DNA of 37,525 nt from the NCBI GenBank assembly GCA_904373255.1, contig CAJFFD010000015.1, positions 1 to 37,525 of the forward strand. Reading direction: 5' to 3'. The notes under the pieces are model-generated. The model did not search any database. It had not been told where the DNA came from and worked only from the letters and a program-made list of their open reading frames with translations. Source of the DNA: an uncultured Clostridia bacterium. Its GTDB lineage: Bacteria; Bacillota; Clostridia; Christensenellales; Borkfalkiaceae. Shown here in pieces: positions 9,027 through 22,462 of this stretch (positions are counted from its first letter, which is position 1; each line of letters starts with the position of its first letter). The position numbers and the translations under genes are program-made.

Positions 9027-9275
9027 TCAACGCGAAGCGTACTTGCGTTTGGTGGCGTTTCCGCCGCGGATATGCCGTTCAGACAGATTTCGTTCGAGAA
9101 CCTTGCGCACCTTTTCGCACAATTCCGCGTCGATTTCCTCCAGCCGCTCTGTTATATCTTTATGTACGGTAGACTTGCTGATACCGAAATGTTCGGCGCA
9201 GGCGCGCACAGTTGCGCCCGTTTCCAGTATGTATTCCCCGCTTTGGCGCGCACGCCTTGCCATATACTCCCACAC
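9027..9275 (-). CDS. spoIIID: Sporulation transcriptional regulator SpoIIID
   Basis: 82-aa DNA-binding protein, full length for the family. The helix-turn-helix region (VRACAEHFGISKSTVHKDITERL) and the basic C-terminal patch (RHIRGGNATKRKY) match SpoIIID closely. In Bacillus it regulates mother-cell genes between the sigma-E and sigma-K stages. The start is GTG at 9275, preceded by TAGGGGG; it aligns with the known SpoIIID N-terminus, so the internal ATG four codons later is less likely. A sigma-E-like promoter lies at 9306-9334. It is the clearest sign that the organism has, or had, a sporulation programme. Confidence 0.95.
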   Translation of the reverse strand: MWEYMARRARQSGEYILETGATVRACAEHFGISKSTVHKDITERLEEIDAELCEKVRKVLERNLSERHIRGGNATKRKYASR

Positions 9276-9447: not shown

Positions 9448-9993
9448 TTAATGGCGCGCCGGGCTTACCGCCAGGTATGCGCGCACACTCGCTTCGATTT
9501 TTTTCAAATGACCGGCATTCTTTTCCACCTCTTCGGCATGCCGCCGCTGCGCTTCCGTCACGCGGGTGCATTCCTCCGATACGCGGGAGCAAGCGCCGTC
9601 GAGCGCACGCATCTTCTCTCTGCTGCGCTCCGCTTCCTCCTCCTTTCCCGCTGCACGGGAACGAAGGGAATCCATGCGGCTGCGGCAGCGCTGTATCTCC
9701 GCCGAACACTCCGCCGCGCCCTCTTCGTCGTCCTCCTCCTGCTGTCTTCTCGAACATTCCAACTCATCGATCCTCGCCTGCACAGCCTTCATCTCCGCCC
9801 GCAGCGTTTCTGCCTCGCTTTCAGCGGCCGCCGCCCGTTTTTCCAAACGGTTTTTGGCGGCATCCGCCTTGCCGACGCCCTCCCGCGCCCTATTCTGCAC
9901 AGCCGACTCCAGATCTGCCGATGCGCTCCCTATTTTCGGAAGCGATGCTCCGATCGCAGTAAGTACGCCCAAATCTACACAATATCTCGCCAT
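9448..9993 (-). CDS. Coiled-coil protein, last gene of the type VII-like operon
   Basis: 181-aa protein, almost entirely helical. Residues about 30-165 are heptad-like and rich in Ala, Glu, Arg and Lys (AAKNRLEKRAAAAESEAETLRAEMKAVQARI), with an acidic break near the middle (QQEEDDEEGAAE) that could form the turn of a helical hairpin. No signal peptide or membrane segment. I do not recognise a family. Its place at the end of the operon, 30 bases after the fourth WXG-type gene, suggests a secreted substrate, a chaperone or a helical partner of the WXG proteins. Start ATG at 9993 with AGAGG ahead of it. Confidence 0.75.
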   Translation of the reverse strand: MARYCVDLGVLTAIGASLPKIGSASADLESAVQNRAREGVGKADAAKNRLEKRAAAAESEAETLRAEMKAVQARIDELECSRRQQEEDDEEGAAECSAEIQRCRSRMDSLRSRAAGKEEEAERSREKMRALDGACSRVSEECTRVTEAQRRHAEEVEKNAGHLKKIEASVRAYLAVSPARH

Positions 9994-10023
9994 TCCGACC
10001 TCTTTGCCTCGTCAGGCAGACAC

Positions 10024-10299
10024 CTAATCGTCGTTGCTGTAGCCGATGATTGCGTCCTTTATCCTTTTCAGCCGCGCCATATACTCGTCTGCGCGATGCG
10101 CAGTACGGACGATGCCCTCGTGCAACTCGTTATACATCACCTGCAGGCTTTTATAGCGCAGGTCTTTCCACGAATTTCCGGCGCCGTTCAGTTCGTCGTC
10201 CAAAGCCTTATCCAACGCCTCCAACGTGCCTTTTACGCTGAAAACAGCATAATAAATATCGCTGACAGCATTGGAACTGACTCTTACCGTATCGCTCAT
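10024..10299 (-). CDS. WXG100-like protein, WxD variant (fourth copy)
   Basis: 91-aa all-helical protein of WXG100 size. The helical-hairpin turn motif is SWKDLRY, so Asp takes the place of the usual Gly. The C-terminal helix ends in GYSNDD, which fits the type VII YxxxD/E export motif. The start at 10299 follows AGGAGG. It is the most divergent of four tandem paralogues, each in its own frame with its own ribosome binding site. WXG100 proteins dimerise and are exported by FtsK/EssC ATPases, and such an ATPase is encoded upstream at 11147-14614. Confidence 0.85.
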   Translation of the reverse strand: MSDTVRVSSNAVSDIYYAVFSVKGTLEALDKALDDELNGAGNSWKDLRYKSLQVMYNELHEGIVRTAHRADEYMARLKRIKDAIIGYSNDD

Positions 10300-10301
10300 G
10301 T

Positions 10302-10571
10302 TCAAGACCTCCTGTAATCCTGCAAATGCTCCAATGTTCTCCCGACGTGGCGCTCCATCCGGTCTATATCCTCCACGCGGGCGGCAATTTCCGCATTGAT
10401 CTCCGAAACCATGCGCACGACTTCCTGGTACTTTTCGTCCTGCCATTCGCCTCTGACCGAGCGGAGCGTATCGCGCATTTTCTGCTGCAGGTTCCACAGC
10501 TCCTCCCTCGTCATTTCGAACACCTTCTTCATCCCTTCCAGCGTCTTTTCGGAGGTGTAAATTTCCGACAT
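10302..10571 (-). CDS. WXG100-like protein, WxD variant (third copy)
   Basis: 89 aa from the start at 10571, chosen because GGGAGGA lies 7 bases ahead. An ATG at 10592 overlaps the stop of the previous gene but would place that site inside the gene. Two predicted helices are joined by GEWQDEKY, and the C-terminus is LQDYRRS. The neighbours are paralogues of nearly the same length; only 2 bases separate its stop from the next start, so the genes are tightly coupled. Confidence 0.87.
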   Translation of the reverse strand: MSEIYTSEKTLEGMKKVFEMTREELWNLQQKMRDTLRSVRGEWQDEKYQEVVRMVSEINAEIAARVEDIDRMERHVGRTLEHLQDYRRS

Positions 10572-10588
10572 TTTTTCTTCCTCCCGAA

Positions 10589-10858
10589 TCATTCATTGTA
10601 AGCGTCGATGGCTTTTTTGATTTTTTCCAGGCGCAAAATGTCGTCTTCCGCCTTTTTCAAAAGCGCCAACAGATGCCCGTGCATCGTTTTCTGCATCTCC
10701 TGCAATTTTTTGAACTGATCGTCCTTCCATTGCGCGCCAGCCGTTGTCATACCCAGTTCGAGGTTATTTTCCATCGCCATCATCTTATTCTGCATGGTGA
10801 CGAGGGCGGTGATCATGTCGGCGACCGCCTGCGAATTTACTTTTGCTCCGCTGCTCAT
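10589..10858 (-). CDS. WXG100-like protein, WxD variant (second copy)
   Basis: 89 aa, start at 10858 behind AAAGGAGG. The turn motif is AQWKDDQF and the C-terminus is AIDAYNE. The first helix is Met-rich (MQNKMMAMENN). Expected to form a helical hairpin and to dimerise with itself or a sister protein, as known for EsxA/EsxB-type proteins; partner choice cannot be told from sequence. Confidence 0.87.
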   Translation of the reverse strand: MSSGAKVNSQAVADMITALVTMQNKMMAMENNLELGMTTAGAQWKDDQFKKLQEMQKTMHGHLLALLKKAEDDILRLEKIKKAIDAYNE

Positions 10859-10873
10859 TCCGGTTTTCCTCCT

Positions 10874-11143
10874 TTATGCCCGCTTATAATCTTCCAGCTT
10901 TTTTTTGATCTCGTCTACAAAAAGCGCCATATCGCCAAGTTCGATGACCAGACCGGGTATGCCGTCGATCATCTCGCGCGCCATTTTTGCGACTTCGACG
11001 TATTTATCGTCGTTCCAGTCGTTGCTGACCGAATGGATTGCCGTTATGATCGACTGCTGCGCCTCCAAAAGACTGTCCTGTCCTCTCGAAAGCACCTTGT
11101 AGATCCCTTCCAGAGCTTCTTCCGAGTTTTGTATTCCCGCCAT
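10874..11143 (-). CDS. WXG100-like protein, WxD variant (first copy)
   Basis: 89 aa, start at 11143. Its AGGAGG lies within the last codons of the ATPase gene, whose stop is 3 bases upstream, so the two are translationally linked. The turn motif is NDWNDDKY and the C-terminus is LEDYKRA. All four tandem copies keep W-x-D followed two residues later by an aromatic (KY, QF, KY, RY) and keep a Tyr close to the C-terminus, suggesting a shared recognition feature. Confidence 0.88.
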   Translation of the reverse strand: MAGIQNSEEALEGIYKVLSRGQDSLLEAQQSIITAIHSVSNDWNDDKYVEVAKMAREMIDGIPGLVIELGDMALFVDEIKKKLEDYKRA

Positions 11144-11146
11144 GTT

Positions 11147-14100
11147 CTATTCCTCCTGTTTGGTTTGTTCTTTTGTTTCGGGCAAGGCGAAAGGCTTGAA
11201 TTGCAAAACCTCCTTTCCGTCCGAAAATACGCACGTTATATCGCTCTTGGGCGATGTTTCCACCGGCGACGCTACGCGTACGCAGTTTTCATCGGACAGC
11301 CCGAACACGATCTTTTTGGTGAAACGGTTGTTCAGGCTCTGCGAATATGTAGCCGAGCCGAGCGCGTCGACTGTGTTCAGCGCATCCGTCGAAAGCATGA
11401 TGAAATGCACCCCGAAGCTGTATCCGCCCGAAATAAGTTCGCTCCAGGCATCCCTGTACGAGATTGCCGCTCCCTTTTTTTCGTGCTGCGGCTGCTTTGC
11501 CGCGAGCGCGGCAAACATCGCCCGGAAATCTTCCGCCCCCGCCGGCTCCGCAGGCTTTTCTTCGCAGTCTTCTTCCTCCTCTATATAATCGGAGCGCTCG
11601 ACGCGCTCGCCTTTGCACAGCTTGCACAATACGTCTATATCGTGGAACCCGCGCACAAAGACGATATTGCCGCGCGCGTCCTCGCTTTTTCCCTTTTTGC
11701 GCAGCGACACCTCTTCGGCGAGGCTTTCGACCATGCGCAGAAAATCGGGCCGCGTTCTGACTCTGCGGAAAATTTCCGGCGAATGCTCCGCAGCCTTCTC
11801 CATATACTCCGCAGGCGGCTCCCCGATAAAATCGTTTCCGTCGAGCAGATATACGCATGTGTTTTCCGCACGGGCGAGGCTGATCAGCAACAGCTGCGTG
11901 AGCGACTCCATCAGCTTGCCTTCTTTGCCTACGCATAACAGATTGCTGTTCTGCTTTTTGGTGAAAGCGACGCGCACATAATCGGCGACCTTGATCGGCG
12001 CGCCGAGCAACAGCTCCACGGCGCCTTGACTTTGCGGCTTGCCGAACTCCTCCTGCGGGAACGCGGGGACGCGGCTCCCTTCGAAAACCTTTGTTTCGTC
12101 GCCCTTGCCCGCCGCAGCTTTGGCAATCGCTTCGAGATACTTCTTTTTTGTTTCGCCGCTGCAATACGCCGTGCGGAACACGATGTTCCCGCATTCGGTA
12201 AAGTCTTTATTGTATACTGCCGTGCCGATCGCGCCGCGCATACGGGCAAACGCGTCGTCACCTGCCGCGCCGAACAGCCTGCCGGCTTCCGTCTGGCTGA
12301 ATTTTAACCCGATGCGGATGCGCATCTGCCCCACCGTATCCGAACTGATCGCACAGTCCGGGCTGCCGACGACGGTGACCGTCTGCGTACTCATGATAAG
12401 ATGTATACCGTAAGAGCGCCCGAGCTTGACGATTTCGTTGGTCAGGTGCGCGCAGTTCTGTGCGACGCTGCGATTCGACTTGCTGTCGAACAGCACCTGA
12501 AATTCATCCATGATGACGAGTATGCGCGGCAATTTTTTGCCCGATGCCCGCACATACCCCGCGATGTCGCTGACGCCGCTCTCCTTGAACAGGACGGAGC
12601 GCCGCTCCATTTCCGCATTCAGATTGAGCAGAATGCTCTCGCCGAACTCCTGCATGGCGTCGAGCGCGAGCAGACGGATATGCGGAATGGGATACGTTTC
12701 GTAAATTTTGAACTCCGTACCGCTTTTAAAGTCCATCAGATACATTTGCAGATCGTCGGGCGAATAATGAAGCGCTGCGCTCAAAATGATCGTATGCAGC
12801 AAGGTAGATTTGCCCGAGCCGGTGCCGCCCGTGATCATCGCGTGATGGGAAGACCCGATCTTTCCGAATTCGATGTCCTCCACGGCGGAACCGTCTCCCT
12901 TTCCGACGGGGATGGAAAGTCCGTCGGCAGAGCTTCGCGTAAACATATCCGAAAGGCTGCACACAGAATCGAACACGATCCCTTTGGAAAGATTTTTCTT
13001 CGCCGCCTGCGCATAGCCGTCGATAAATTCATCCAGTACCGCCTGCCCGGGCAGTTCGCCCGACAGCAGGAACATTCCGCTGCCTTCGCTCTTCATGTAC
13101 CCGGAGTTCTGCACAAGGCAGTACGCCGCCTGGCGTATTTTTTCGATATATTGTTTTGCCGAGCCGTAACCGGACGTTTCGTCCTCCTCCTCGTTGTAGG
13201 CGATGAAAACGAAGATGCCGCATTTTTCGCCGTTCTTCATAATGCTGATCAACGACTCGCAGGCGCCCGCATCGAAAAATTTGGGGAAATCGAATACGCA
13301 TACGAGCTTGACGGGCAAAGGGTTGTCCGGCGTGGCGTCGTTGTATTCCAAAACGTTCCTATATCGGTTGGAGAGCTTTTGCTGGATGACCGAGTCAACG
13401 TAATCGTTCAGCGCGGAAAGGCGGTTGCGTATATCCTCGTACGACGTGAATATTTTCTGCGCGAACATTTCGGGGACTTTTTCTTTGAGCGAGAGAAAAT
13501 TTTTGACGCTCATCCCCTTTTTATCGGGGTCGAACACATTGATCTCCACGCCGTTGACGGGGAGTTGCCGGATAAACTCAAAGACGGTGTTCCCGATGAA
13601 TTCCGCAGCCGCGCCGCGGGATTCCCCGCCTGCGCTCCGTATGAAAAAATTCCGGCAGCTGCCGAGCTGCTCCCTGCAAGGCAGCATCGCGAATCCGTCG
13701 GCAAAAACCGAAGGGAAATTTTCCCCGATCTTCTGCCCCGCGGGTGTTCCCGCAAGGGCGTCGGCGACCATCAGAACGGACTGCGCAATGCGGACGCTGC
13801 GGGGGAAAACCCCTTCACGGCAGAATGCGCCGCCCTCCCCGCCGAATTCTTCGGCGAACTGCTTTTCGCTTTCGCCGATCTCCTGCACCATATCAGGCGG
13901 AAGCAAATCTTCCATTCCGCGCACAGCTTCGTCGCCGATAAAGTCAAGGTCTTCGCCGCGTTCGCGCGTTTCGCATGCGAGCTGCGCACGGTTTGCCGCG
14001 ACCAGTTCGTCTGTGCGAGCCTGAAACGTTTCGGTCAAAGAGCTTTTGCTGCGCTCGAGCCGCGCCTTCGCCTGCCGCTTCTCCTCCTCGGCGCTCCGCA

Positions 14101-14614
14101 CGGCGAGATCGCCGAGCAAAATCAGCTTTTTGAATGCCGCCCTGCGTTTTCCGCCCAACAAAACGGCCTTGGGCAGAGGCTTGTCGATATACCGCGCAGC
14201 CGTCTGTTTGTACGCTTCCGCGATTTGCGGGAGAGGGCATGTTTCGGAAAAATCGGCGATGCCCAGTTCTTTACATACCGCCGCCCTCGTTTCGCCGTCG
14301 ATCTGCATCACGCCGCACTTTGCGGCAAATTTGCCGTAATGCGCGTCTACGCCCTTCAGATGGCATTCCGTATCCGAAATGACGCGCAGCTGATGCTCCG
14401 CTTCGCGCACGGCGGATGCGTAGTTGCGCTCTTCCCGCTCAAAGGCGGCGGCTTTCTCACTGCCCAGTTTTTTCAATTCTTCCGCCTGGTTCCTGCGCAT
14501 GGCGGAAAGGACGCCGTCGTTTTGCCCCGCGGCAGCCCTGTAAACTTTATTCGCATTGCCTATATACGCCGCAATGTCGGCGAGCTTTTTTTCGTTTTCT
14601 CTGAAATCGAACAT
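11147..14614 (-). CDS. FtsK/SpoIIIE-family ATPase, EssC-like, soluble
   Basis: 1155-aa motor ATPase, the presumed engine for export of the WXG-type proteins. Residues about 1-240 are charged and coiled-coil-like. Around residue 597 a complete Walker A (GGTGSGKST) and around 700 a Walker B (ILVIMDEFQ) define an FtsK/HerA domain, with the usual STQT and MRIRIGLKF segments after it. A second ATPase-like domain near 885-900 has a degenerate P-loop (LCVGKEGKLMES), like the non-catalytic domains of EssC/EccC. Unlike EssC, no transmembrane helices and no FHA domain are visible, so membrane attachment must come from other proteins. It lies 3 bases after the mini WXG gene and 3 bases before WXG copy 1. 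The start at 14614 lacks a strong ribosome binding site. Confidence 0.9.
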   Translation of the reverse strand: MFDFRENEKKLADIAAYIGNANKVYRAAAGQNDGVLSAMRRNQAEELKKLGSEKAAAFEREERNYASAVREAEHQLRVISDTECHLKGVDAHYGKFAAKCGVMQIDGETRAAVCKELGIADFSETCPLPQIAEAYKQTAARYIDKPLPKAVLLGGKRRAAFKKLILLGDLAVRSAEEEKRQAKARLERSKSSLTETFQARTDELVAANRAQLACETRERGEDLDFIGDEAVRGMEDLLPPDMVQEIGESEKQFAEEFGGEGGAFCREGVFPRSVRIAQSVLMVADALAGTPAGQKIGENFPSVFADGFAMLPCREQLGSCRNFFIRSAGGESRGAAAEFIGNTVFEFIRQLPVNGVEINVFDPDKKGMSVKNFLSLKEKVPEMFAQKIFTSYEDIRNRLSALNDYVDSVIQQKLSNRYRNVLEYNDATPDNPLPVKLVCVFDFPKFFDAGACESLISIMKNGEKCGIFVFIAYNEEEDETSGYGSAKQYIEKIRQAAYCLVQNSGYMKSEGSGMFLLSGELPGQAVLDEFIDGYAQAAKKNLSKGIVFDSVCSLSDMFTRSSADGLSIPVGKGDGSAVEDIEFGKIGSSHHAMITGGTGSGKSTLLHTIILSAALHYSPDDLQMYLMDFKSGTEFKIYETYPIPHIRLLALDAMQEFGESILLNLNAEMERRSVLFKESGVSDIAGYVRASGKKLPRILVIMDEFQVLFDSKSNRSVAQNCAHLTNEIVKLGRSYGIHLIMSTQTVTVVGSPDCAISSDTVGQMRIRIGLKFSQTEAGRLFGAAGDDAFARMRGAIGTAVYNKDFTECGNIVFRTAYCSGETKKKYLEAIAKAAAGKGDETKVFEGSRVPAFPQEEFGKPQSQGAVELLLGAPIKVADYVRVAFTKKQNSNLLCVGKEGKLMESLTQLLLISLARAENTCVYLLDGNDFIGEPPAEYMEKAAEHSPEIFRRVRTRPDFLRMVESLAEEVSLRKKGKSEDARGNIVFVRGFHDIDVLCKLCKGERVERSDYIEEEEDCEEKPAEPAGAEDFRAMFAALAAKQPQHEKKGAAISYRDAWSELISGGYSFGVHFIMLSTDALNTVDALGSATYSQSLNNRFTKKIVFGLSDENCVRVASPVETSPKSDITCVFSDGKEVLQFKPFALPETKEQTKQEE

Positions 14615-14617
14615 CCT

Positions 14618-14836
14618 TTATTCCCCGTCATCTGCCTCGGAAATAAGTTTTTCCAGATCGCCGAGCGCCTCGTCTGCACGGTACGCCGCCTCTTTCAGTG
14701 CAAGGCAGGCGCGCATGCTTTCGGCAAGTTCGCCCTGGAATTGTTTCCCCTTTTCGTCCGTCCAGGCAGCAGCCTCGCCACAAACGGTGCCGTAGCTGTC
14801 GATGAGCGCCGCCTCCTCCGCTTCGAATTTGCCCAT
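14618..14836 (-). CDS. Mini WXG-like helical protein
   Basis: 72 aa, helical, with a central AAAWTDEKGKQF that matches the WxD turn of the four 89-91-aa proteins further down the operon, and an acidic C-terminus (ISEADDGE). It is about 20 residues shorter than a WXG100 protein. The start at 14836 follows GAGGAG, which overlaps the end of the E1-like gene. Its position between the E1-like gene and the ATPase could mean a dedicated adaptor, or a modification substrate; that is inference. Confidence 0.75.
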   Translation of the reverse strand: MGKFEAEEAALIDSYGTVCGEAAAWTDEKGKQFQGELAESMRACLALKEAAYRADEALGDLEKLISEADDGE

Positions 14837-14839
14837 ATG

Positions 14840-15976
14840 CTACTCCTCGTAGCGGCATTTGCCGCCGCAGCCCTTGCCGAAATGTACCACGAGCGATGTG
14901 GTCACCTGCAGAGGATAACTGAATATCTCCACCATTTCCCCGCCGATCGCCGGGTCTGACGTGTTGCATACGAGCGTATACTGCTGCAGATTGTTCAAAA
15001 GCCTGGGGATATACGAACCGTTGCCGCGGTTGAGTATATCCAGTGCCAGCTTTATGCCGATGCAGGTGATAAAATTGATGTCAACCGAAATGCCCGGCTC
15101 GAACTTCAGCTTTTCGATATTCACCTCGTTGGAATACACATGGTGGTTGTTCGCGGAAACGCGGCCGGACAGACCGCCCCCGTCGCCCAGCGCACAGCCG
15201 CAGCAGGGCATATTTTCTCCGGGCAGCCAGTAAAAAATTTCGCCCGCAAGAGCGCGTTCCCAAAACCCGATCGAGAGAAAGGCGCAGCCGAACGCCGCCG
15301 CAATCCTGTTTGCGTATACGTCGGCGGCGCGGTTATCGGCGCAGCCGATGAACAGCGTATCGCCGGGTACGCAGAATTCCGCAAACTGCTCCTGCGAGAT
15401 ATGCTCCACAACATTCCTGTATGCGACGACGTGCGCCGCGGGATTGATGTTATGAACCCGCTTTTCGATGAGGTCGACCTTGTATTCCCCGACTTCGCTG
15501 ATGCCGCACTGATGCCTGCAAATGTTATGGTATTCCAGTACGTCGGTATCCACGAGCATGAAATGCCCCACTCCCGAGCGCGCCAGCTCGAGCGCGACGA
15601 GACTGCCGACCGAACCGCAGCCGAGGATTACGGCGCGCTTGGCGCGCATCACGTCCGATTCGAGAATCCCTTTATTCCGAGAAAATATATTTAAATACAG
15701 GCTATACGTTTCCGTTTCGTACTTCTGTCCTTTATAATAGAACTCGGCTGTATCGCCCGTACGGTATCCGCACAGCCTGCCGCCCGCATCGCCATGCTCG
15801 CCCGAAGCGTATAATTTCCCCAAATAACGCAAATTTCTCCCCTTTTCCGTAGAAACGACGTTGAAAATCCCGCTGTCTTTTTTATAATACCCGTACAGGC
15901 AGACAGTTTCGTCCTTTTCTAAAACGGAAAAAGGGAGAAATACCTTTAATTTTTTTCCAACTTTGAAAGCGAACAC
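14840..15976 (-). CDS. E1-like / ThiF-family adenylyltransferase
   Basis: 378-aa protein. About 110 N-terminal residues of unknown fold precede a ThiF/E1 Rossmann domain: GCGSVG at 119-124, ribose-binding Asp143 (LVDTD), N151-x2-R154-x-Q156, Lys166 and ADN at 213-215. This fold adenylates the C-terminus of a ubiquitin-like protein. A PCCGC motif (257-261) and a C-terminal Cys pair (370, 374) could hold zinc, as in ThiF/MoeB. Which Cys would form the thioester is unclear (Cys212 and Cys231 are candidates). The start is GTG at 15976, with AAGGAG 8 bases ahead; the gene overlaps the JAB gene by 31 bases. No membrane segments. In this operon it would activate a modifier for the E2-like protein. 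Confidence 0.9.
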   Translation of the reverse strand: MFAFKVGKKLKVFLPFSVLEKDETVCLYGYYKKDSGIFNVVSTEKGRNLRYLGKLYASGEHGDAGGRLCGYRTGDTAEFYYKGQKYETETYSLYLNIFSRNKGILESDVMRAKRAVILGCGSVGSLVALELARSGVGHFMLVDTDVLEYHNICRHQCGISEVGEYKVDLIEKRVHNINPAAHVVAYRNVVEHISQEQFAEFCVPGDTLFIGCADNRAADVYANRIAAAFGCAFLSIGFWERALAGEIFYWLPGENMPCCGCALGDGGGLSGRVSANNHHVYSNEVNIEKLKFEPGISVDINFITCIGIKLALDILNRGNGSYIPRLLNNLQQYTLVCNTSDPAIGGEMVEIFSYPLQVTTSLVVHFGKGCGGKCRYEE

Positions 15977-16911
15977 TCGACCAGCTCCTTATCGACCGCG
16001 CCGCCGTTTTTTGCGGCTGTTTTCGCATCCGCCATGAGCAAGGTAAACAGCCCGCCCGTATAAACGAAGCTGCATCCGTCAAAGCGGAATATAAAGTACG
16101 GCTCATCCCTGTACTGAATGCGGTAAAAGGATAGATCGTAACTCTCCCTGCCCCGCACGCACAGATGAAGGCAATATTCGTCCAACGATATTTCCGCTTC
16201 CGCACCCGCGCCCGAAAAATATTCGAGGTCGTCCTCCAGTTTGCCGAGCAGTTCCTCCACGAACAGCTCCGCCCGCTCCCTGCGCAGCATGTCGCCGCGG
16301 ATGTAATCCTCCACATTCAGCGAAGTTCTGCGCAAAATGCACAGCACCTCCGCAAAGAGAGGTTCTTCGGGGAACTTTTTCCGCCGCGCGCCGCCGCAGG
16401 CATAGCCGTCGATGTAATTGAGCAGCCGTTCGGCAGGTGCGAGCGCCCTGTACTTTTCAGGTATGAACCTGTCGCCCACTTCGTACTCCACCTTGCGGTA
16501 GCGGAGCGGCAAAGTTACATGGTATACAGTCATGCGGAAAGCCGGGTCGATATTGACGAGCATGGATACCGCGCCTTCCTTCCGCATCCGCGCATAGCGG
16601 GTATTCGTTCCGTCGTCGGTACCCGAAAAACTGTCGAACGAACCGGGATGGCGGTGCCATAGCCCGATGAGTCCGGGCGGCGTTTCGTACAGCCGCGCCA
16701 GCTTGTTGACGAGATGATTCAGATACGACTGATCGTATTCGAAAAAGGCTACCTGGAACACCGATTTGGGGCCGGGATCCACCGCTTCGACTATGTACCA
16801 GCAGTCTCCGTCAATATAGCCCAAAAAAACGCCGCCCGTTTCCGTGCGTATTTTTTCCGCGGTTTCCGCCAGCACGGAAACATAGGCGCGTTCACTGAAA
16901 ACGACTTTCAT
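15946..16911 (-). CDS. JAB/JAMM metallopeptidase (deubiquitinase-like)
   Basis: 321 aa. The N-terminal domain has a complete JAMM zinc site: Glu24 (TETGGVFLGY), His86-x-His88, Ser96 and Asp99 (HRHPGSFDSFSGTDD), the spacing of active isopeptidases. JAMM enzymes trim precursor ubiquitin-like proteins or remove them from targets. Residues about 165-321 form a second region with no family I recognise, rich in charged helices and ending in strands (EPYFIFRFDGCSFVYTGG). Start ATG at 16911 behind GAGGG. It lies 18 bases after the E2-like gene and overlaps the E1-like gene, giving the order E2-JAB-E1 in tight coupling. Confidence 0.92.
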   Translation of the reverse strand: MKVVFSERAYVSVLAETAEKIRTETGGVFLGYIDGDCWYIVEAVDPGPKSVFQVAFFEYDQSYLNHLVNKLARLYETPPGLIGLWHRHPGSFDSFSGTDDGTNTRYARMRKEGAVSMLVNIDPAFRMTVYHVTLPLRYRKVEYEVGDRFIPEKYRALAPAERLLNYIDGYACGGARRKKFPEEPLFAEVLCILRRTSLNVEDYIRGDMLRRERAELFVEELLGKLEDDLEYFSGAGAEAEISLDEYCLHLCVRGRESYDLSFYRIQYRDEPYFIFRFDGCSFVYTGGLFTLLMADAKTAAKNGGAVDKELVECSLSKLEKN

Positions 16912-16929
16912 TTTCCCTCGCCGAAAGCA

Positions 16930-17415
16930 TCAGAATTTGTGGATATTCGTATCGAATTCCTCGAACGGTATATCTCCGTTCAGCCACAGCTCGAAAACGC
17001 AGATCCACTTGCATGCCCAGGCAATGCACGACGCAGCCGTGCTTGAACGGTTGCCGGACGCCTGAAATTCGTTGGGGCGGACGGTACAGATGTACGCCTC
17101 TTCCCCTCCGTTTTTGTAATAGATGTGCGGAATGGGCGTGCTGCCCAGCTGCTTTTGCAGGGCGGAAAGATTGGGCGAAACGGGATATACGTCGATCGAG
17201 CCGCCGTATTGCCCGGGTTGGGTATGCGGATGGTCATTGTCGTAAATCACCATCAGATCCCATACGGTATCGCCCAACGGGTTGACCTTGCCGCGCCAAT
17301 ACAATCTGCCGTCCGGCAGCTTCATGAGCTTGAAGGACGGGTAAAACTTGCGCATTGCAAGCACTTCCGCCTGAAAAAGCTGCTTATCGTTTTCGTACCA
17401 ATAGATGCTTTTCAT
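16930..17415 (-). CDS. E2-like (UBC-fold) protein
   Basis: 161 aa. No single long motif proves it, but the arrangement fits bacterial E2-like proteins: an HP-containing loop (DHPHTQPG, 61-68), PHIYY at 96-100, a likely catalytic Cys110 (EEAYICTV), then a helix with AASCIAWACKWICVFELWLNGD ending the domain (read in two parts, 127-139 and 140-148). The predicted role is to accept a modifier from the E1-like enzyme and pass it to a target. The start at 17415 has AGGTGA close ahead; 3 bases separate it from the stop of the 64-aa gene. The identification rests partly on its neighbours, E1-like and JAB. Confidence 0.75.
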   Translation of the reverse strand: MKSIYWYENDKQLFQAEVLAMRKFYPSFKLMKLPDGRLYWRGKVNPLGDTVWDLMVIYDNDHPHTQPGQYGGSIDVYPVSPNLSALQKQLGSTPIPHIYYKNGGEEAYICTVRPNEFQASGNRSSTAASCIAWACKWICVFELWLNGDIPFEEFDTNIHKF

Positions 17416-17418
17416 GCG

Positions 17419-17613
17419 TCACCTCGCCAACTTGCCCTCGGGTACAGTGATCGTGGTCGCCGCGGGGTCAAGGTCGGCTTCCTCTTTGGTGATGACTTCG
17501 CCGCTCGGCGCAACGGAAATCTGTTCTCCGTTGCGGAGCGCTTCCGCGAGTTTTTTACGGCGTTCGGCGGCGTCGTCTGCCGCAAATACCCCGCCGGGAA
17601 CCTTTATGTCCAT
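17419..17613 (-). CDS. Small protein of unknown function next to the E2-like gene
   Basis: 64 aa from the ATG at 17613, which has AGAGGTG 7 bases ahead. A longer version from 17655 (14 more residues) overlaps the previous stop as ATGA and cannot be excluded. Visible features: a strand-like start (MDIKVPGGVF), a charged helix (AAERRKKLAEALRNGE), then strands (ISVAPSGEVIT, TTITVPEGKLAR). The length and order loosely suggest a small beta-grasp protein, the kind of modifier an E1/E2 pair needs, but there is no C-terminal Gly-Gly and the fold is not demonstrated. Being directly ahead of the E2-like gene makes it the best candidate modifier or adaptor. Confidence 0.65.
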   Translation of the reverse strand: MDIKVPGGVFAADDAAERRKKLAEALRNGEQISVAPSGEVITKEEADLDPAATTITVPEGKLAR

Positions 17614-17651
17614 ATTTTTCACCTCTGTAAAATTATTGTGCGGGAATACGA

Positions 17652-18368
17652 TCATCTCGTACGCACCTGGCGCAGCACTTCGCCGTTGTCCGCGATCTGT
17701 ACGCCGCTGTCGCCGAGAATATCGTCGAGCGAGATCTCCTGCCCGAGATCGGCTCCTACGCCGCCCGCCGCCGCTGCTTCGACCATCGTAGGCTGCAACG
17801 ACTGCGCTATGTATTCATCCACCCGGACAAGGAAAGCCGAGTCTGCCTGCATGATGCGGTTGAGGCGCACCATGTCGATGATACGCTGAATAAAGCGTCC
17901 GATCGTCGTAATGGGGGCGATCAAAAGGTAAATGATAATGTTGAACAGAGTCGTAATCCAGGGACTGCTGTCGCCGTTGTACCGCGCCTCCTGATGCTTA
18001 TAATATACCTTTTTGCATATCGTCAGGAGCGAACCGACGATAAACGGCAGATAAATGATGGCGATGAACATGCCCGTCGGCTCGTCCATGATGATGCCGA
18101 ACCCGAAACAAATATCCAAGCCCAGAATCAGACCGACGATAAGACCGATAATGATGAACACGAACTCGCGGATGACCATCCCTTTCAGGGAACGGACTTC
18201 GGCAATTTCGGAACGCACCGCCTCTTTATAGCATTCCGAACAGAGGTGTGTTTCGTCGTCTTCACCCTCATTCAGGGCAAAATCGTCATAGCACTGGCGG
18301 CAGATCGGTGCGCCGCATTTGTCGCACTGGTATACCGCGTCTCTCTTTTCATGTGTGACACAACTCAT
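17652..18368 (-). CDS. B-box/treble-clef zinc-finger membrane protein
   Basis: 238 aa. The N-terminus carries four metal-ligand pairs: C3/H6, C15/C18, C23/C26 and C43/C46, a binuclear treble-clef (B-box-like) arrangement. Three to four hydrophobic segments follow, from about residue 68 to 165 (FVFIIIGLIVGLILGL, MFIAIIYLPFIVG, TLFNIIIYLLIAPI), then a cytoplasmic-looking tail of about 65 residues with an acidic end. RING and B-box fingers act with E2 enzymes in eukaryotes, so an E3-like or docking role at the membrane is plausible, but that is inference. The start at 18368 has only a weak site (GGAAAG). It shares the operon with the E2, JAB and E1-like genes. Confidence 0.8.
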   Translation of the reverse strand: MSCVTHEKRDAVYQCDKCGAPICRQCYDDFALNEGEDDETHLCSECYKEAVRSEIAEVRSLKGMVIREFVFIIIGLIVGLILGLDICFGFGIIMDEPTGMFIAIIYLPFIVGSLLTICKKVYYKHQEARYNGDSSPWITTLFNIIIYLLIAPITTIGRFIQRIIDMVRLNRIMQADSAFLVRVDEYIAQSLQPTMVEAAAAGGVGADLGQEISLDDILGDSGVQIADNGEVLRQVRTR

Positions 18369-18383
18369 CTTTCCGTACCCCGC

Positions 18384-18806
18384 TTATCTTCTGCTAACGA
18401 AAGTAATATCCGTTTTATTCCAGCCGAGAATGGCACGGGGAACGCTTTTGCCGCAAACATAGTTGACGATCAGTGGAATAATAATTCCGCCGACGATCGC
18501 CCAAAGTATGCTCAACGCACCGCCTCCGTCTCTGCGCCCGCGGCTGGACAAAAATCCGACCATATTGTTCGCGTACACGCCGAAACCTACGACGACGCCG
18601 ATCAACGCATACAGGATCACGGGGATCATTGCGCCGACGGCACCGCCGACCGAACCGAGCGTGAATGCCAATACGCCGCTGAGTAAAAGGCCTCCCAACC
18701 AGATCAGCGCATAAATATTCCGCCGCTTTTTCGCCAGCTTGATCAGAAGCGCAATGTCGTCCTCTTTCAGGTCGCCCCTGAAAGCCTCAAAGTCTTCCCT
18801 TGCCAT
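18384..18806 (-). CDS. Small polytopic membrane protein, first gene of the operon
   Basis: 140 aa. A charged N-terminal stretch (REDFEAFRGDLKEDDIALLIKLAKKRR) is followed by about four hydrophobic segments (IYALIWLGGLLLSGVLAF, VGAMIPVILYALIGVVVGFGVY, ALSILWAIVGGIIIPLIV) and a short tail. No family recognised. The start at 18806 follows AAGGAGGAG. As the first gene after the promoter at 18846-18874 and one of only two membrane proteins in the operon, it may supply the membrane part for the otherwise soluble EssC-like ATPase. Confidence 0.8.
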   Translation of the reverse strand: MAREDFEAFRGDLKEDDIALLIKLAKKRRNIYALIWLGGLLLSGVLAFTLGSVGGAVGAMIPVILYALIGVVVGFGVYANNMVGFLSSRGRRDGGGALSILWAIVGGIIIPLIVNYVCGKSVPRAILGWNKTDITFVSRR

Positions 18807-18845: not shown

Positions 18846-18874
18846 ATTATAGCGTAATTTAACTACATAGTCAA
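18846..18874 (-). promoter_or_regulatory. Promoter of the secretion/ubiquitin-like operon
   Basis: On the minus strand TTGACT (18869-18874), 17-base spacer, TATAAT (18846-18851), about 35 bases before the first start. A near-consensus sigma-A promoter. The region is strongly AT-rich and carries operator-like inverted repeats. Confidence 0.9.
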
Positions 18875-18930: not shown

Positions 18931-19251
18931 ATGGATATAATAGAAAAACTTAACAGGCTGCGCCTGGAAAGAAACATGAGTGTTTACCGCCTTGCCGAGC
19001 TTTCCGGCCTGAACCAATCGACTCTGGCAAACACCTTTTCGCGCGGCACCGTCCCCTCGATCGCCAACCTTGAAATCATCTGTGAAACGCTGGGGCTTAC
19101 GCTCGCGCAATTCTTTACGGAAGATGAAATTTGCGTACGCATGACGGAAGAAGAACACAAATTTTTCAGCAACTATAAAAAGCTGCCGGAACCGATCAAA
19201 CAGTCGGTAAACGACATCGTAAACACGATCGCGGATACTTACAAAAACTGA
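18931..19251 (+). CDS. XRE-family HTH regulator divergent from the operon
   Basis: 106 aa. An XRE/Cro-type helix-turn-helix spans residues about 4-62 (LNRLRLERNMSVYRLAELSGLNQSTLANTF in two helices, then VPSIANLEIICETLGLTLAQFF), followed by a short helical tail (SNYKKLPEPIKQSVNDIVNTIA) typical of phage-like or accessory-element regulators. The start at 18931 has only a weak site (TAGG). The 124-base gap to the operon contains overlapping promoters and inverted repeats, so it most likely controls the secretion/ubiquitin-like operon and itself. Confidence 0.9.
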   Translation: MDIIEKLNRLRLERNMSVYRLAELSGLNQSTLANTFSRGTVPSIANLEIICETLGLTLAQFFTEDEICVRMTEEEHKFFSNYKKLPEPIKQSVNDIVNTIADTYKN

Positions 19252-19687: not shown

Positions 19688-22462
19688 TTACGGACGTTCG
19701 TTTTCGCCGTTTTCTGCGGAACCTGCAGCGATTTCCTGCTGCTGCGCCTCCTCTTCCAGCTGTTTCTGCTTTCTGCGGGCGCGGCGGGCTTCCCTGCGCC
19801 GCTCTTTGGCGTTTTCGATGTCCTTATCGATCTGCTCGACAGAGAGGTCGACCATCGTGTAAGCCGCTTCCAGATCCGCCGCTTCGCGCAGCACCAGTTC
19901 GGTCGCACGGATTTTCAGCTTCGCGTTGGTGTTGGTCGTCCTGCGGAAATCTTTGAGCATCTCGTTTTCGAGGAAGAACAATGCCACGGGATAGCCGCGC
20001 CGTACGGTCAGCTTGACGATCTGTTTGCCGTTGCGCTTGATGCAGATACCGTTGCTCTGCTTTACCTCTGCCGCGCCATCTTTCGCGAGTGCGTATTCCT
20101 TTACCTTGTTGAACAGATCCAGAAGTTCTTCGTTCAGCTCGACGTACGCTTCCGAGAAGGAACGCACATTCGCCGCGATTACGACCTGTTCTTTGTCGTC
20201 GTCCGCTTCCGCCGCAAGCTCGTTTTCCTCCGCCGCAGGTTCCGGCTGCTCCGGCTCTGCCGCGGGTACTTCCTCTGCCGGGACGGGCTGCTCCGCCTCT
20301 TCAGCGGGCTGTTCCGCCGCTTCTGCGGAGCGATTTTTTTTTACGATGACGATAACCAGCACGACCACGACCGCCACCAGGACGATAACCAGCAGGACAT
20401 ACAGCCCCGTAAGGTTCGTCGTGTTCTGCGCCGCCGCCTCGACGGACGCGACCTGCGCCTTGAAGGTGGATACCGCCGTCGTTACTTCGGAAACGGTCGT
20501 AGCCGCATCGATGGAGGCAAGAGCCTCGTTGTAGTACCGCAGCACGAGCTGTGCGTTATCCTCGCTGAATACCTTCGTCAGCTTCGCATAGATGTCGCCG
20601 TCGGTGGTTTCCGCCGTGAACGCAAGCGCAACCGCCGCGCCGCCGTTCGCTTCGTCTGTACCGCCGATGATCGAATCGAGATAATTGTTGAGCCATTCAC
20701 CGATGTCGGTAAGCGCTTCGTCCTTCGCCTCCTGCACGGAAGACACAGCCGATACTTCGCCTTCGATTTCGTCGACCGTACCCTGTACGGCGGCAATGTC
20801 CTCGAGGATTTGCGCCAGGCTGTCTGCGATCGCTTCGATGTCGGTGCCGTCTGCAAGCGAATCGAGAGCGGCGAGGATGGAGGTGATATCCCCCTGCGCC
20901 TTTTCGATCGCTTCGGCGATCCAACCCGTTTCCTCATCGAGCGCACCGGTGATCGTGTCGAGTTTGGAGGTGAATCCGTTCAGCACATCGCTGATACCCG
21001 CAAGTTCCGAAGCAATTCCGTTCGTGCCGCTGACCGCATCGTCGATGCCTTCCAGCGCCGCGTTAATGGTGTTTTCGAGATAATCGCGGATGCCGGCGAG
21101 CGAATCGGAATCGGCGTCGGTGCCGATGATCGCGCTCTGTGCCTTGCCGATGGCTTCTTCAACATTAGCAAGCAGCTCGTCGAACGAGTTGTTTTCGCCC
21201 GTGAGCGCGCCGTTCAATGCGGTCAGAGTATCCTTCAGCGTCTGCAGATCCTCCGACTGCGCGGTGATCTGATTGCGGTATGCATAAATGTCTCCGATTT
21301 CGGCTTTCGCCTGTTCGAAGTAGCTGTTCAGCTCCTCTTCATCCGCCGCGCTGTTCATCGCGGTGTAAATGTAGAGCGGAATGACCAATCCGTTTGCGTT
21401 TTCGTCGCGCCAGGATTCAAGCTCGGCGATCTTGTCCGCCTTTGCCTGCTCCCAGGCATCTTCCTGCGCCGCCGCGAGCGTATCTGCAGCGTCCATCGCA
21501 TCGAGCCGCGCTTTGGCAACGCCCTTTTCGCTCGTCGCATCGGCGATCGCATTGTACGCGGCTACCAAAGCCACGGCATTTTCGTCGCCTTTATCCGCAA
21601 GCGCCTGCACTTCCGTCCACTTCATGCCGAGCATGAGGACGTATTCGCGCACGTCTGCCTGCGCATTCGTCTGCGCCGCGCGCAGAGCCGACGATTCGAC
21701 GGGTACATAGTAACCGTTTTGCAGCTCCGCTACAAAGTCGGGATTCATGTAATCTTCCGCCGGACGATACTTAAACATGCCGCCCGAAATGAAGCCCGTA
21801 ACGTTTGTGCTTTCGACCTTGCCTTCGAACGTGCCGCCGGCAATGGATACGGAAAGATTGTCCTGATTGTCGGGCGTGACCGCAGGAGCATGCTCCTCGT
21901 CCACCTTTTCATAGAACGCATAGCCCTCTTCGTTGGTTGCGGTAAACGTGCCGCCCTCGATGCTGACGGAAACGCCCGTTCCCTCTTCCGCAAAGTAGCG
22001 GGAAACGCCGACCGCAACGCCCGCGAAACGGAACCCGTCGGACAGAGGCGATTCCATGAACGGATCGGTCGCTGTGACGGACACACCGTCGCCCTCGATC
22101 ACGAGGCTGCCGGCGCGCATTTCCAGACCCGAGCAACCCGTGATTTGGGTATTGCCGGAAATCGTCAATTCGCCGACCTGCGGATGATAGATTGCAATGC
22201 TGTTCGTGCTTTCGATCGTGCCGCCGAGGATATCGATGTCGGTGCCGTGCAGCGTGCCGTTGCCGACGATCGCGTAAGCGCGTGCGGTGATCTTTGTATT
22301 ATTGCCGGAAATCTTCAGATGGCTGTACGTTGCGGGGTCAGCAGCCGCGGCAGCTTCCCTGTCGGAACCGTATGTGCCTTCGATGAAGATCGCCGTGCAG
22401 ACCGTACCCGTAAGGGTCGTAGGTTCGGCAACACAGGTAACGACGGAATCAATGATTTCCAT
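19688..22462 (-). CDS. Surface protein, C-terminal piece: beta-helix repeats, coiled coil, TM and cytoplasmic domain
   Basis: 924-aa frame that continues the beta-helix protein beginning at 24560; a frame change near 22465 separates it from the middle piece. In order: more GGTF-type repeats (ILGGTIES, IEGGTFTAT, IAGGTFEG, ISGGMFKY) to about residue 240; a long Ala-rich helical region to about 665 with heptad stretches (AEIGDIYAYRN, LDTITGALDEETG); one transmembrane segment (TGLYVLLVIVLVAVVVVLVIVIV); a Pro/Glu-rich linker (AEQPAEEAEQPVPAEE); then a basic cytoplasmic domain (SFSEAYVELNEELLDLFNKVKEY, GKQIVKLTVRRGYPVALFFLENE) I know only as an uncharacterised domain of similar Firmicutes membrane proteins. 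It ends in a charged tail (ERRREARRARRKQKQ). No LPxTG; anchoring is by the TM segment. The Met at 22462 lacks a clear ribosome binding site, so this is probably not an independent gene. Confidence 0.8.
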   Translation of the reverse strand: MEIIDSVVTCVAEPTTLTGTVCTAIFIEGTYGSDREAAAAADPATYSHLKISGNNTKITARAYAIVGNGTLHGTDIDILGGTIESTNSIAIYHPQVGELTISGNTQITGCSGLEMRAGSLVIEGDGVSVTATDPFMESPLSDGFRFAGVAVGVSRYFAEEGTGVSVSIEGGTFTATNEEGYAFYEKVDEEHAPAVTPDNQDNLSVSIAGGTFEGKVESTNVTGFISGGMFKYRPAEDYMNPDFVAELQNGYYVPVESSALRAAQTNAQADVREYVLMLGMKWTEVQALADKGDENAVALVAAYNAIADATSEKGVAKARLDAMDAADTLAAAQEDAWEQAKADKIAELESWRDENANGLVIPLYIYTAMNSAADEEELNSYFEQAKAEIGDIYAYRNQITAQSEDLQTLKDTLTALNGALTGENNSFDELLANVEEAIGKAQSAIIGTDADSDSLAGIRDYLENTINAALEGIDDAVSGTNGIASELAGISDVLNGFTSKLDTITGALDEETGWIAEAIEKAQGDITSILAALDSLADGTDIEAIADSLAQILEDIAAVQGTVDEIEGEVSAVSSVQEAKDEALTDIGEWLNNYLDSIIGGTDEANGGAAVALAFTAETTDGDIYAKLTKVFSEDNAQLVLRYYNEALASIDAATTVSEVTTAVSTFKAQVASVEAAAQNTTNLTGLYVLLVIVLVAVVVVLVIVIVKKNRSAEAAEQPAEEAEQPVPAEEVPAAEPEQPEPAAEENELAAEADDDKEQVVIAANVRSFSEAYVELNEELLDLFNKVKEYALAKDGAAEVKQSNGICIKRNGKQIVKLTVRRGYPVALFFLENEMLKDFRRTTNTNAKLKIRATELVLREAADLEAAYTMVDLSVEQIDKDIENAKERRREARRARRKQKQLEEEAQQQEIAAGSAENGENERP

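Follow-up and report, generated by a model that had tools for sequence, protein, structure and literature searches.

The window analysed here, a 37,525-nucleotide stretch of contig CAJFFD010000015.1 from an uncultured Clostridia bacterium, contains a 13-gene operon in which E1-, E2- and JAB-type enzymes of ubiquitin-like conjugation stand together with an EccC/EssC-like ATPase and WxD proteins of the WXG100 superfamily. This merger was first noticed in a sequence-only reading of the window. The observation is confirmed, and the merger recurs as a conserved system in other genomes. On balance, we favor the reading that the operon encodes one system, in which type VII-like export of WxD proteins and of WxD-fused polymorphic toxins is equipped with its own ubiquitin-like conjugation cycle. 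The parts of the system, their conservation and linkage, and their families and predicted folds are described below.

Genetic Organization of the Operon

According to the open reading frame (ORF) listing of the window, all thirteen genes are located on the minus strand and run from position 18806 to position 9448, as the earlier reading had described. In the 5′ to 3′ order they encode a 140-amino-acid membrane protein (TM140), a B-box-like membrane protein, a 64-amino-acid protein (p64), an E2-like protein, a JAB protease, E1, a 72-amino-acid WxD protein, the ATPase, four further WxD proteins and a coiled-coil protein. The intergenic spacing ranges from a 30 bp gap to a 31 bp overlap; if p64 starts at 17613, the largest gap is 38 bp. 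The promoter and the terminator said to bracket the set were both found, the terminator-like stem being visible in the sequence and missing from the list produced by the program scan. The features are as follows:

18846–18874, minus strand: sigma-70-like promoter TTGACT-17-TATAAT, about 40 bp upstream of gene 1
18384–18806, minus strand: TM140, operon gene 1, three hydrophobic segments
17652–18368, minus strand: B-box-like zinc-finger membrane protein, 238 amino acids, three hydrophobic segments; candidate membrane anchor or E3-like adaptor
17419–17613, minus strand: p64, candidate modifier; C-terminus VPEGKLA plus one Arg, N-terminal motif copy VPGGVFA
16930–17415, minus strand: E2-like conjugating enzyme, predicted UBC fold, candidate catalytic Cys110
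15946–16911, minus strand: JAB/JAMM metalloprotease, 321 amino acids, with a C-terminal extension
14840–15976, minus strand: E1/ThiF-like adenylating enzyme, 378 amino acids
14618–14836, minus strand: 72-amino-acid WxD protein
11147–14614, minus strand: EccC/EssC-like FtsK-family ATPase, 1155 amino acids, one intact Walker A/B pair
10874–11143, minus strand: WxD (WXG100-superfamily) helical protein, no Pfam match when searched alone
10589–10858, minus strand: WxD helical protein
10302–10592, minus strand: WxD helical protein, weak WXG100 match (0.0091)
10024–10299, minus strand: WxD helical protein, 91 amino acids, from an internal ATG of a 190-amino-acid ORF
9448–9993, minus strand: coiled-coil protein, 181 amino acids
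9384–9411, minus strand: intrinsic-terminator-like perfect stem AAGGAACCGC-acgg-GCGGTTCCTT followed by a T-run, about 40 bp downstream of the operon

Conservation and Distribution

The conservation of the operon was studied with E1 as the only bait in a genome collection described as comprising 84,980 species. E1 relatives accounted for 36 of the 55 pattern matches, with 48–82% identity in the best segment, and their neighbors were sought with profiles built from the other proteins of the window. The recruited loci belong mostly to Clostridia and Coriobacteriia; bins labelled Spirochaetes (L016), Phycisphaerales (L011) and Bacilli (L028) supply one locus each. The genes for p64, E2 and JAB precede E1 in all 30 loci with at least 2.5 kb upstream, and the ATPase gene follows E1 in 32 of the 35 loci that leave at least 1.5 kb for it. 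Homologues of the B-box protein occur in 24 of the 30 loci with room, and WxD proteins in 28 of 34. The closest relative, locus L072 of genome G263, shares the core gene order of the window: a WxD ORF is followed by the genes for the B-box protein, p64, E2, JAB, E1 and the ATPase and then by four WxD genes. Loss of gene order in related genomes, named in the earlier reading as an outcome that would speak against the merger, was thus not what was found, and chance association is excluded because the order is conserved in distant genomes.

The 36 loci are not all independent. L037 and L038, as well as L032 and L033, are near copies; and L039 and L042 come from one assembly, as do L026 and L041. 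L004 (G266) and L022, a record of Christensenellaceae bacterium Phil1, have the same E2 and p64 rows in the alignments. Animal gut or rumen samples are named in many, though not all, of the record titles. Strain records other than metagenome bins include Faecalibacterium prausnitzii ATCC 27768 (L017), Olsenella sp. KGMB02461 (L040) and Collinsella sp. An268 (L038), and hence the system can be tested. An E1 59% identical to that of the window is also found in an unverified fecal scaffold labelled ‘Bacteriophage sp.’ (L051, MT836827.1), which is probably a bacterial fragment. Profile searches of the recruited loci revealed no homologue of TM140, which therefore seems local to this window, nor any of the 72-amino-acid WxD protein or, at the sequence level, of the 181-amino-acid coiled-coil protein; other loci encode a coiled-coil-like protein of about 248 amino acids close to the WxD genes.

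Pairwise protein distances within the clostridial set co-vary, with r of 0.73 for ATPase and p64, 0.71 for E1 and E2, 0.71 for ATPase and the B-box protein, 0.63 for E2 and ATPase and 0.61 for E1 and ATPase. The values for the ATPase against the five other families tested range from 0.33 to 0.73. Host relatedness alone could account for part of this co-variation.

Counting the window genome, the E2 profile was found in 4 of 396 genomes of the order and in 1 of 398 genomes of the phylum sample, and JAB in 5 of the 396; a genome of the same genus (G296) gave no match for E2 or JAB. The ATPase, at E ≤ 1e-50, occurs in 11 of the 396 genomes. The three strongest matches, in the window’s own genome (G000), G263 and G266, are accompanied by E2, which was not found in the other eight. 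Six of these eight module-free ATPase loci were fetched (L066–L070 and L073). A short WxD or WxG ORF lies near the ATPase in five of them, with none in L067. Ten neighboring ORFs from these loci were scanned; they include genes for an ADP-ribosyltransferase, a TIR protein and an acetyltransferase in L068, for a nuclease in L070, for a patatin in L073 and for three subunits of a V-type ATP synthase in L069.

A tree of 40 ATPase cores separates the 33 module-linked sequences from the six module-free ones by a branch with 97/91 support, and the module-linked group spans Bacillota and Actinomycetota. The simplest reading is that a WxD/EssC-like family gained the conjugation module once; it is tentative because of the long branches among the module-free rows. 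It is very improbable that the two gene sets are independent operons, functionally unrelated and neighbors only because a successful mobile block carries both. The patchy distribution of E2 and the three loci with conjugation genes and no ATPase would suit such a block, but the ATPase was found beside E1 with E1 as the sole bait, the linked ATPases form one group across two phyla, and the window genes overlap or are closely spaced.

Predicted Conjugation Enzymes

The E2-like protein gave no Pfam match at E ≤ 1 and matched the E2 models of PADLOC at 1.1e-15. It is modelled as a UBC fold, with UFC1 among the closer E2 folds; absence of this fold, the other outcome that the sequence-only reading had set against itself, was not observed. 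Cys110 is invariant in all 33 aligned sequences. The PADLOC scan covered six of the 13 operon proteins, and among them only E2 matched the ‘Cyclase’ model (5.3e-4), at the C-terminal end of that model only (positions 428–533 of 542).

JAB matches the Pfam family Prok-JAB at 1.3e-4, slightly below the cut-off. Its residues E24, H86-R-H88 and S96-x2-D99, which we take to be those of the JAMM site, are invariant in 31 of 31 sequences, and the site is complete, as claimed earlier. E1 belongs to the ThiF family (Pfam, 1.7e-24). Comparison of its profile with the PDB pointed to UBA5 as the best match (1.8e-16), followed by a similar value for MccB (2.7e-16, profile positions 93–284). All three enzymes match PADLOC models of the cyclic-oligonucleotide-based antiphage signaling system (CBASS), and E1 (5.6e-19) and JAB (5.5e-12) also match the cap2_3 model of the 6A-MBL system (NCBIfam NF058523). 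The catalytic Cys250 of UBA5 is described as sitting in a crossover loop, and UFM1 as having a beta-grasp domain. In the alignment of 25 E1 sequences, taken by itself, no cysteine between C261 and C370 is invariant; C337 is present in at least 90% of them.

The 64-Amino-Acid Protein

The earlier reading merely listed p64 among the genes. The protein is indeed present, and the comparison of its relatives makes it the best candidate for the tag and likely the modifier of the system. Stand-alone members are 54–74 amino acids long and have a near-invariant C-terminus VPxGKLA. Eight columns are invariant in 30 sequences, four of them in this motif (P58, G60, L62 and A63 in the window numbering), while I55, V57 and K61 are nearly invariant. 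Among 35 p64 regions with the exact motif, 24 end in ...LA, nine have a variable tail of exactly three residues and two, both in L035, lie within longer ORFs; the window p64 has a one-residue tail. Several members, that of the window included, have an N-terminal copy of the end motif. In L035, one p64 unit is found in one ORF and another is fused to E2, and in L006, whose p64 is without the exact motif, two tandem units are fused to E2. This last locus, also recovered as L071 (G017; L071:5870-9250), carries a JAB–E1 fusion as well. Outside p64, the motif was found in only one, spurious-looking ORF among the ORFs of L002 and L004–L043 and the 13 window proteins. End motif, tails and tandem or fused copies together are what a precursor cut by JAB would look like. 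In bacteria, fusions of poly-ubiquitin-like proteins to an E2-like domain that is inactive have been described (PMC11354881).

The structure model of p64 is of low confidence and comprises a helix and short strands, with a predicted local distance difference test score (pLDDT) of 58.7 and a predicted template modelling score (pTM) of 0.29. The PDB matches, the best at 1.3e-6, fell on short segments of de novo designed TIM barrels and of other unrelated proteins. A beta-grasp fold is possible, but in most of the 30 aligned members the helix is preceded by a few residues only, and there would be little room for the first hairpin of such a fold.

The short length of p64, its lack of a confident fold, the closeness of E1 to MccB as much as to UBA5 and the absence of an invariant cysteine in the E1 crossover region would also suit peptide maturation, in which an MccB-like E1 would adenylate the 64-amino-acid precursor, E2 and JAB would process it, and the product would be an exported peptide or signal. 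We regard this as quite unlikely, since an E2 of predicted UBC fold with an invariant cysteine and a complete JAMM site are both conserved, tandem p64 copies and E2 fusions in which the end motif recurs are reminiscent of modifier precursors, and half of the invariant p64 columns lie in the C-terminal motif.

ATPase, WxD Proteins and Toxin Fusions

The ATPase matches FtsK_SpoIIIE (Pfam, 1.3e-26), and among PDB entries its profile prefers EccC (1.1e-38) and YukB (1.9e-24) to the FtsK translocase (2e-13), with EccC5 also matched. The value against the NCBIfam EssC model is 104 bits, with a cut-off of 778. The window protein has one Walker A/B pair (GGTGSGKS at 596 and ILVIMDEF at 698), and every ATPase ORF spanning the region keeps one intact pair. 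No hydrophobic membrane segment was revealed in the window ATPase by the hydropathy scan and no FHA match by Pfam, in line with the soluble EssC-like enzyme described earlier; in nine further ATPase ORFs, one or two weak hydrophobic segments exceed the threshold of 1.6, the highest reaching 1.93. In L010 (11299-15725) and L018 (6205-10521) the ATPase is split into two ORFs.

WxD is the form of the motif in 91 of 94 WXG-like ORFs. The five WxD proteins of the window, searched singly against Pfam WXG100, gave weak matches below the cut-off or none. The family profile built from 62 members aligns with Staphylococcus aureus EsxA over positions 1–87 (7.5e-4), with one designed coiled coil outscoring EsxA over part of the profile, and 26 of the 62 members match WXG100 at E ≤ 0.1 (best 8e-7). 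By its profile, the WxD family goes with WXG100.

Twenty ORFs combine an N-terminal WxD domain with a C-terminal domain of one of nine classes. A Pfam scan for toxin domains covered ten of them. A colicin-DNase domain with WHH (9.2e-21) was found in L024, a glutamine deamidase (1.8e-12) in L034, C39-like domains above the cut-off in L014 and below it in L025, L013 and L008, and a weak M13 match in L036; the fusions in L023, L021 and L009 matched no toxin family in Pfam. Small genes of family c35 adjoin the main HExxH class in five of five loci, a sixth HExxH ORF (L009) being a separate class without c35, and those of family c41 adjoin C39-like ORFs in four of four. Both families are placed as immunity genes would be. 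A membrane protein that by eye is M48 peptidase-like lies downstream in 14 loci. The presence of WxD-toxin fusions near the ATPase strengthens the export reading.

Known parts of the type VIIb secretion system (T7SSb) were sought in six host genomes by profile searches that were positive for the Bacillus subtilis control. YukD (EsaB) was found in none of them. YukC (EssB) was not found above the cut-off, with one match below it (0.0082, G263), and neither was EsaA, with matches below the cut-off in two genomes (Olsenella and Collinsella, best 7.6e-21). The genome of the window, for its part, is only 73% complete. In view of these results and of the helix-free window ATPase, one part of the earlier interpretation, the label of a minimal type VII system in the strict T7SSb sense, is not retained; the other part, a real and conserved merger, is.

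The helix-free ATPase also bears on a reading without export, in which CBASS-like E1, E2 and JAB would conjugate or prime WxD-toxins inside the cell for defense or abortive infection, with the ATPase acting as a sensor or unfoldase. The matches of the three enzymes to CBASS models, those of the ATPase to the PADLOC models SspH (9.9e-24) and mads_8 (1.3e-21), and the TIR and patatin genes near two related module-free ATPases point in this direction. So does the sole plasmid match of E2 (L050, NZ_CP030129.1 102378-116749), which sits next to transfer genes on a conjugative Indioceanicola profundi plasmid, in a CBASS operon encoding a nucleotidyltransferase, an E2-like protein and a cGAMP-activated phospholipase. 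Nevertheless, we consider intracellular defense unlikely: WXG100-superfamily proteins and an EccC/YukB-type ATPase are parts of export machines, colicin-DNase and deamidase domains with class-specific neighboring genes look like the cargo of competition, the B-box membrane protein is conserved, and Pfam revealed no cGAS/DncV-like nucleotidyltransferase (CD-NTase) among the 19 window proteins scanned, the 13 operon proteins included.

Proposed Mechanism

The pairing of a conjugation module with an exporter suggests that a protein tag may control export. We infer the reactions, the identity of the tag, its target and the export step as follows. JAB would trim p64 after ...GKLA, E1 would adenylate the trimmed C-terminus and Cys110 of E2 would take p64 as a thioester. 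p64 would then be joined either to a component of the export machine or to a WxD substrate; the WxD substrates, the ATPase and the B-box protein are possible targets. The B-box protein (PF00643, zf-B_box, 3.7e-4, under the curated cut-off) may serve as an adaptor at this step because it is a membrane protein encoded beside the conjugation set. The EccC/EssC-like ATPase may then engage or release the substrate, and JAB would reverse the tag. In a narrower form, which is possible and which we hold to be doubtful, export is gated by a dedicated conjugation cycle with a short, non-beta-grasp GKLA modifier and an E1 that lacks the usual catalytic cysteine and transfers directly to E2. If real, tag-linked export would be a bacterial case of a ubiquitin-like tag governing secretion, and would offer both a modifier that may lie outside the beta-grasp fold and a pared-down exporter that lacks the known T7SSb membrane parts.

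Several observations weigh against tag-linked export. E1, E2 and JAB match models of CBASS, which acts inside the cell, and E1 has no invariant cysteine where UBA5 has its catalytic one. No fold is predicted with confidence for p64, whose motif has Ala rather than Gly at its end. Six of 34 loci show no WxD protein, three (L032, L033 and L035) have conjugation genes without the ATPase, and the window operon itself contains no WxD-toxin fusion. JAB distances co-vary weakly with those of the B-box protein (r 0.24) and p64 (r 0.21). The module-free ATPases of the tree come from one order and include several long branches, for which the tree tool warns of false joins. With no YukD or YukC above the cut-off in six host genomes, the membrane channel is left unexplained.

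Surroundings of the Operon

The host assembly is a draft of 1.92 Mb in 165 contigs, 73% complete. A divergent gene for an XRE-type regulator (18931–19251, plus strand, HTH_26 1.7e-8) shares its upstream region with the operon and may regulate it. Upstream of the regulator, a 924-amino-acid protein (19688–22462, minus strand) shows, on visual inspection, a single long hydrophobic segment and helical stretches of repetitive sequence, and matches no Pfam family above the cut-off. Directly downstream of the operon lies a spoIIID-like gene (9027–9275, minus strand, 5.4e-34), suggesting a spore-forming host lineage.

Comparison with Known Systems

Bacterial E1–E2 tagging and WXG/EssC export are each known; we found no report of their joining in the open-licence literature, searched mostly through listings. 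In that literature, no paper contained WXG100 together with ubiquitin-conjugating, and, by their titles, none of those on type VII secretion and ubiquitin-activating dealt with this subject. Conjugation of YukD-like proteins in some bacteria was reportedly proposed by Burroughs and colleagues in 2011, which is a risk to novelty. In the relevant passages of Iyer et al. (2006, PMC1779556), YukD is placed near ESAT-6 export genes and is stated to be not conjugated, and neighborhoods of JAB and E1 are treated separately. In the portion of the polymorphic toxin survey by Zhang et al. (2012, PMC3482391) that was covered, WXG occurs 62 times and ‘E1-like’ does not occur.

Type II CBASS comprises Cap2 (E1–E2) and Cap3 (JAB), or a stand-alone E2 in its short form. 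The system described here differs in that no CD-NTase was found, its E1 and E2 are two distinct proteins, it includes a small candidate modifier and the module is linked to an EccC/EssC-like ATPase and WxD proteins. The match of E1 and JAB to the 6A-MBL model amounts to 68 and 45 bits against a cut-off of 320, and the gene context is different. Similar to the UFM1 pathway (UBA5 and UFC1), E1 has UBA5 as its best PDB match and E2 is modelled with UFC1 among its closer folds; unlike in that pathway, there is no invariant counterpart of UBA5 Cys250.

The Bil system (BilABCD) also combines a small modifier candidate with E1, E2 and JAB in one operon. Two ubiquitin-like domains are described for BilA and a Cys domain for BilD (PMC11354881), whereas the present operon holds the 64-amino-acid protein only, for which no beta-grasp domain is predicted with confidence, and its E1 family shows no invariant cysteine in the crossover region. 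With the T7SSb of Bacillota the system shares WXG100-superfamily proteins, an EssC-family ATPase and WXG-type toxins with neighboring genes. It departs from it in lacking YukD and YukC above the cut-off in the six host genomes, in a window ATPase without membrane helices and in the built-in conjugation module. By the features tested, the system falls outside T7SSb, CBASS and Bil.

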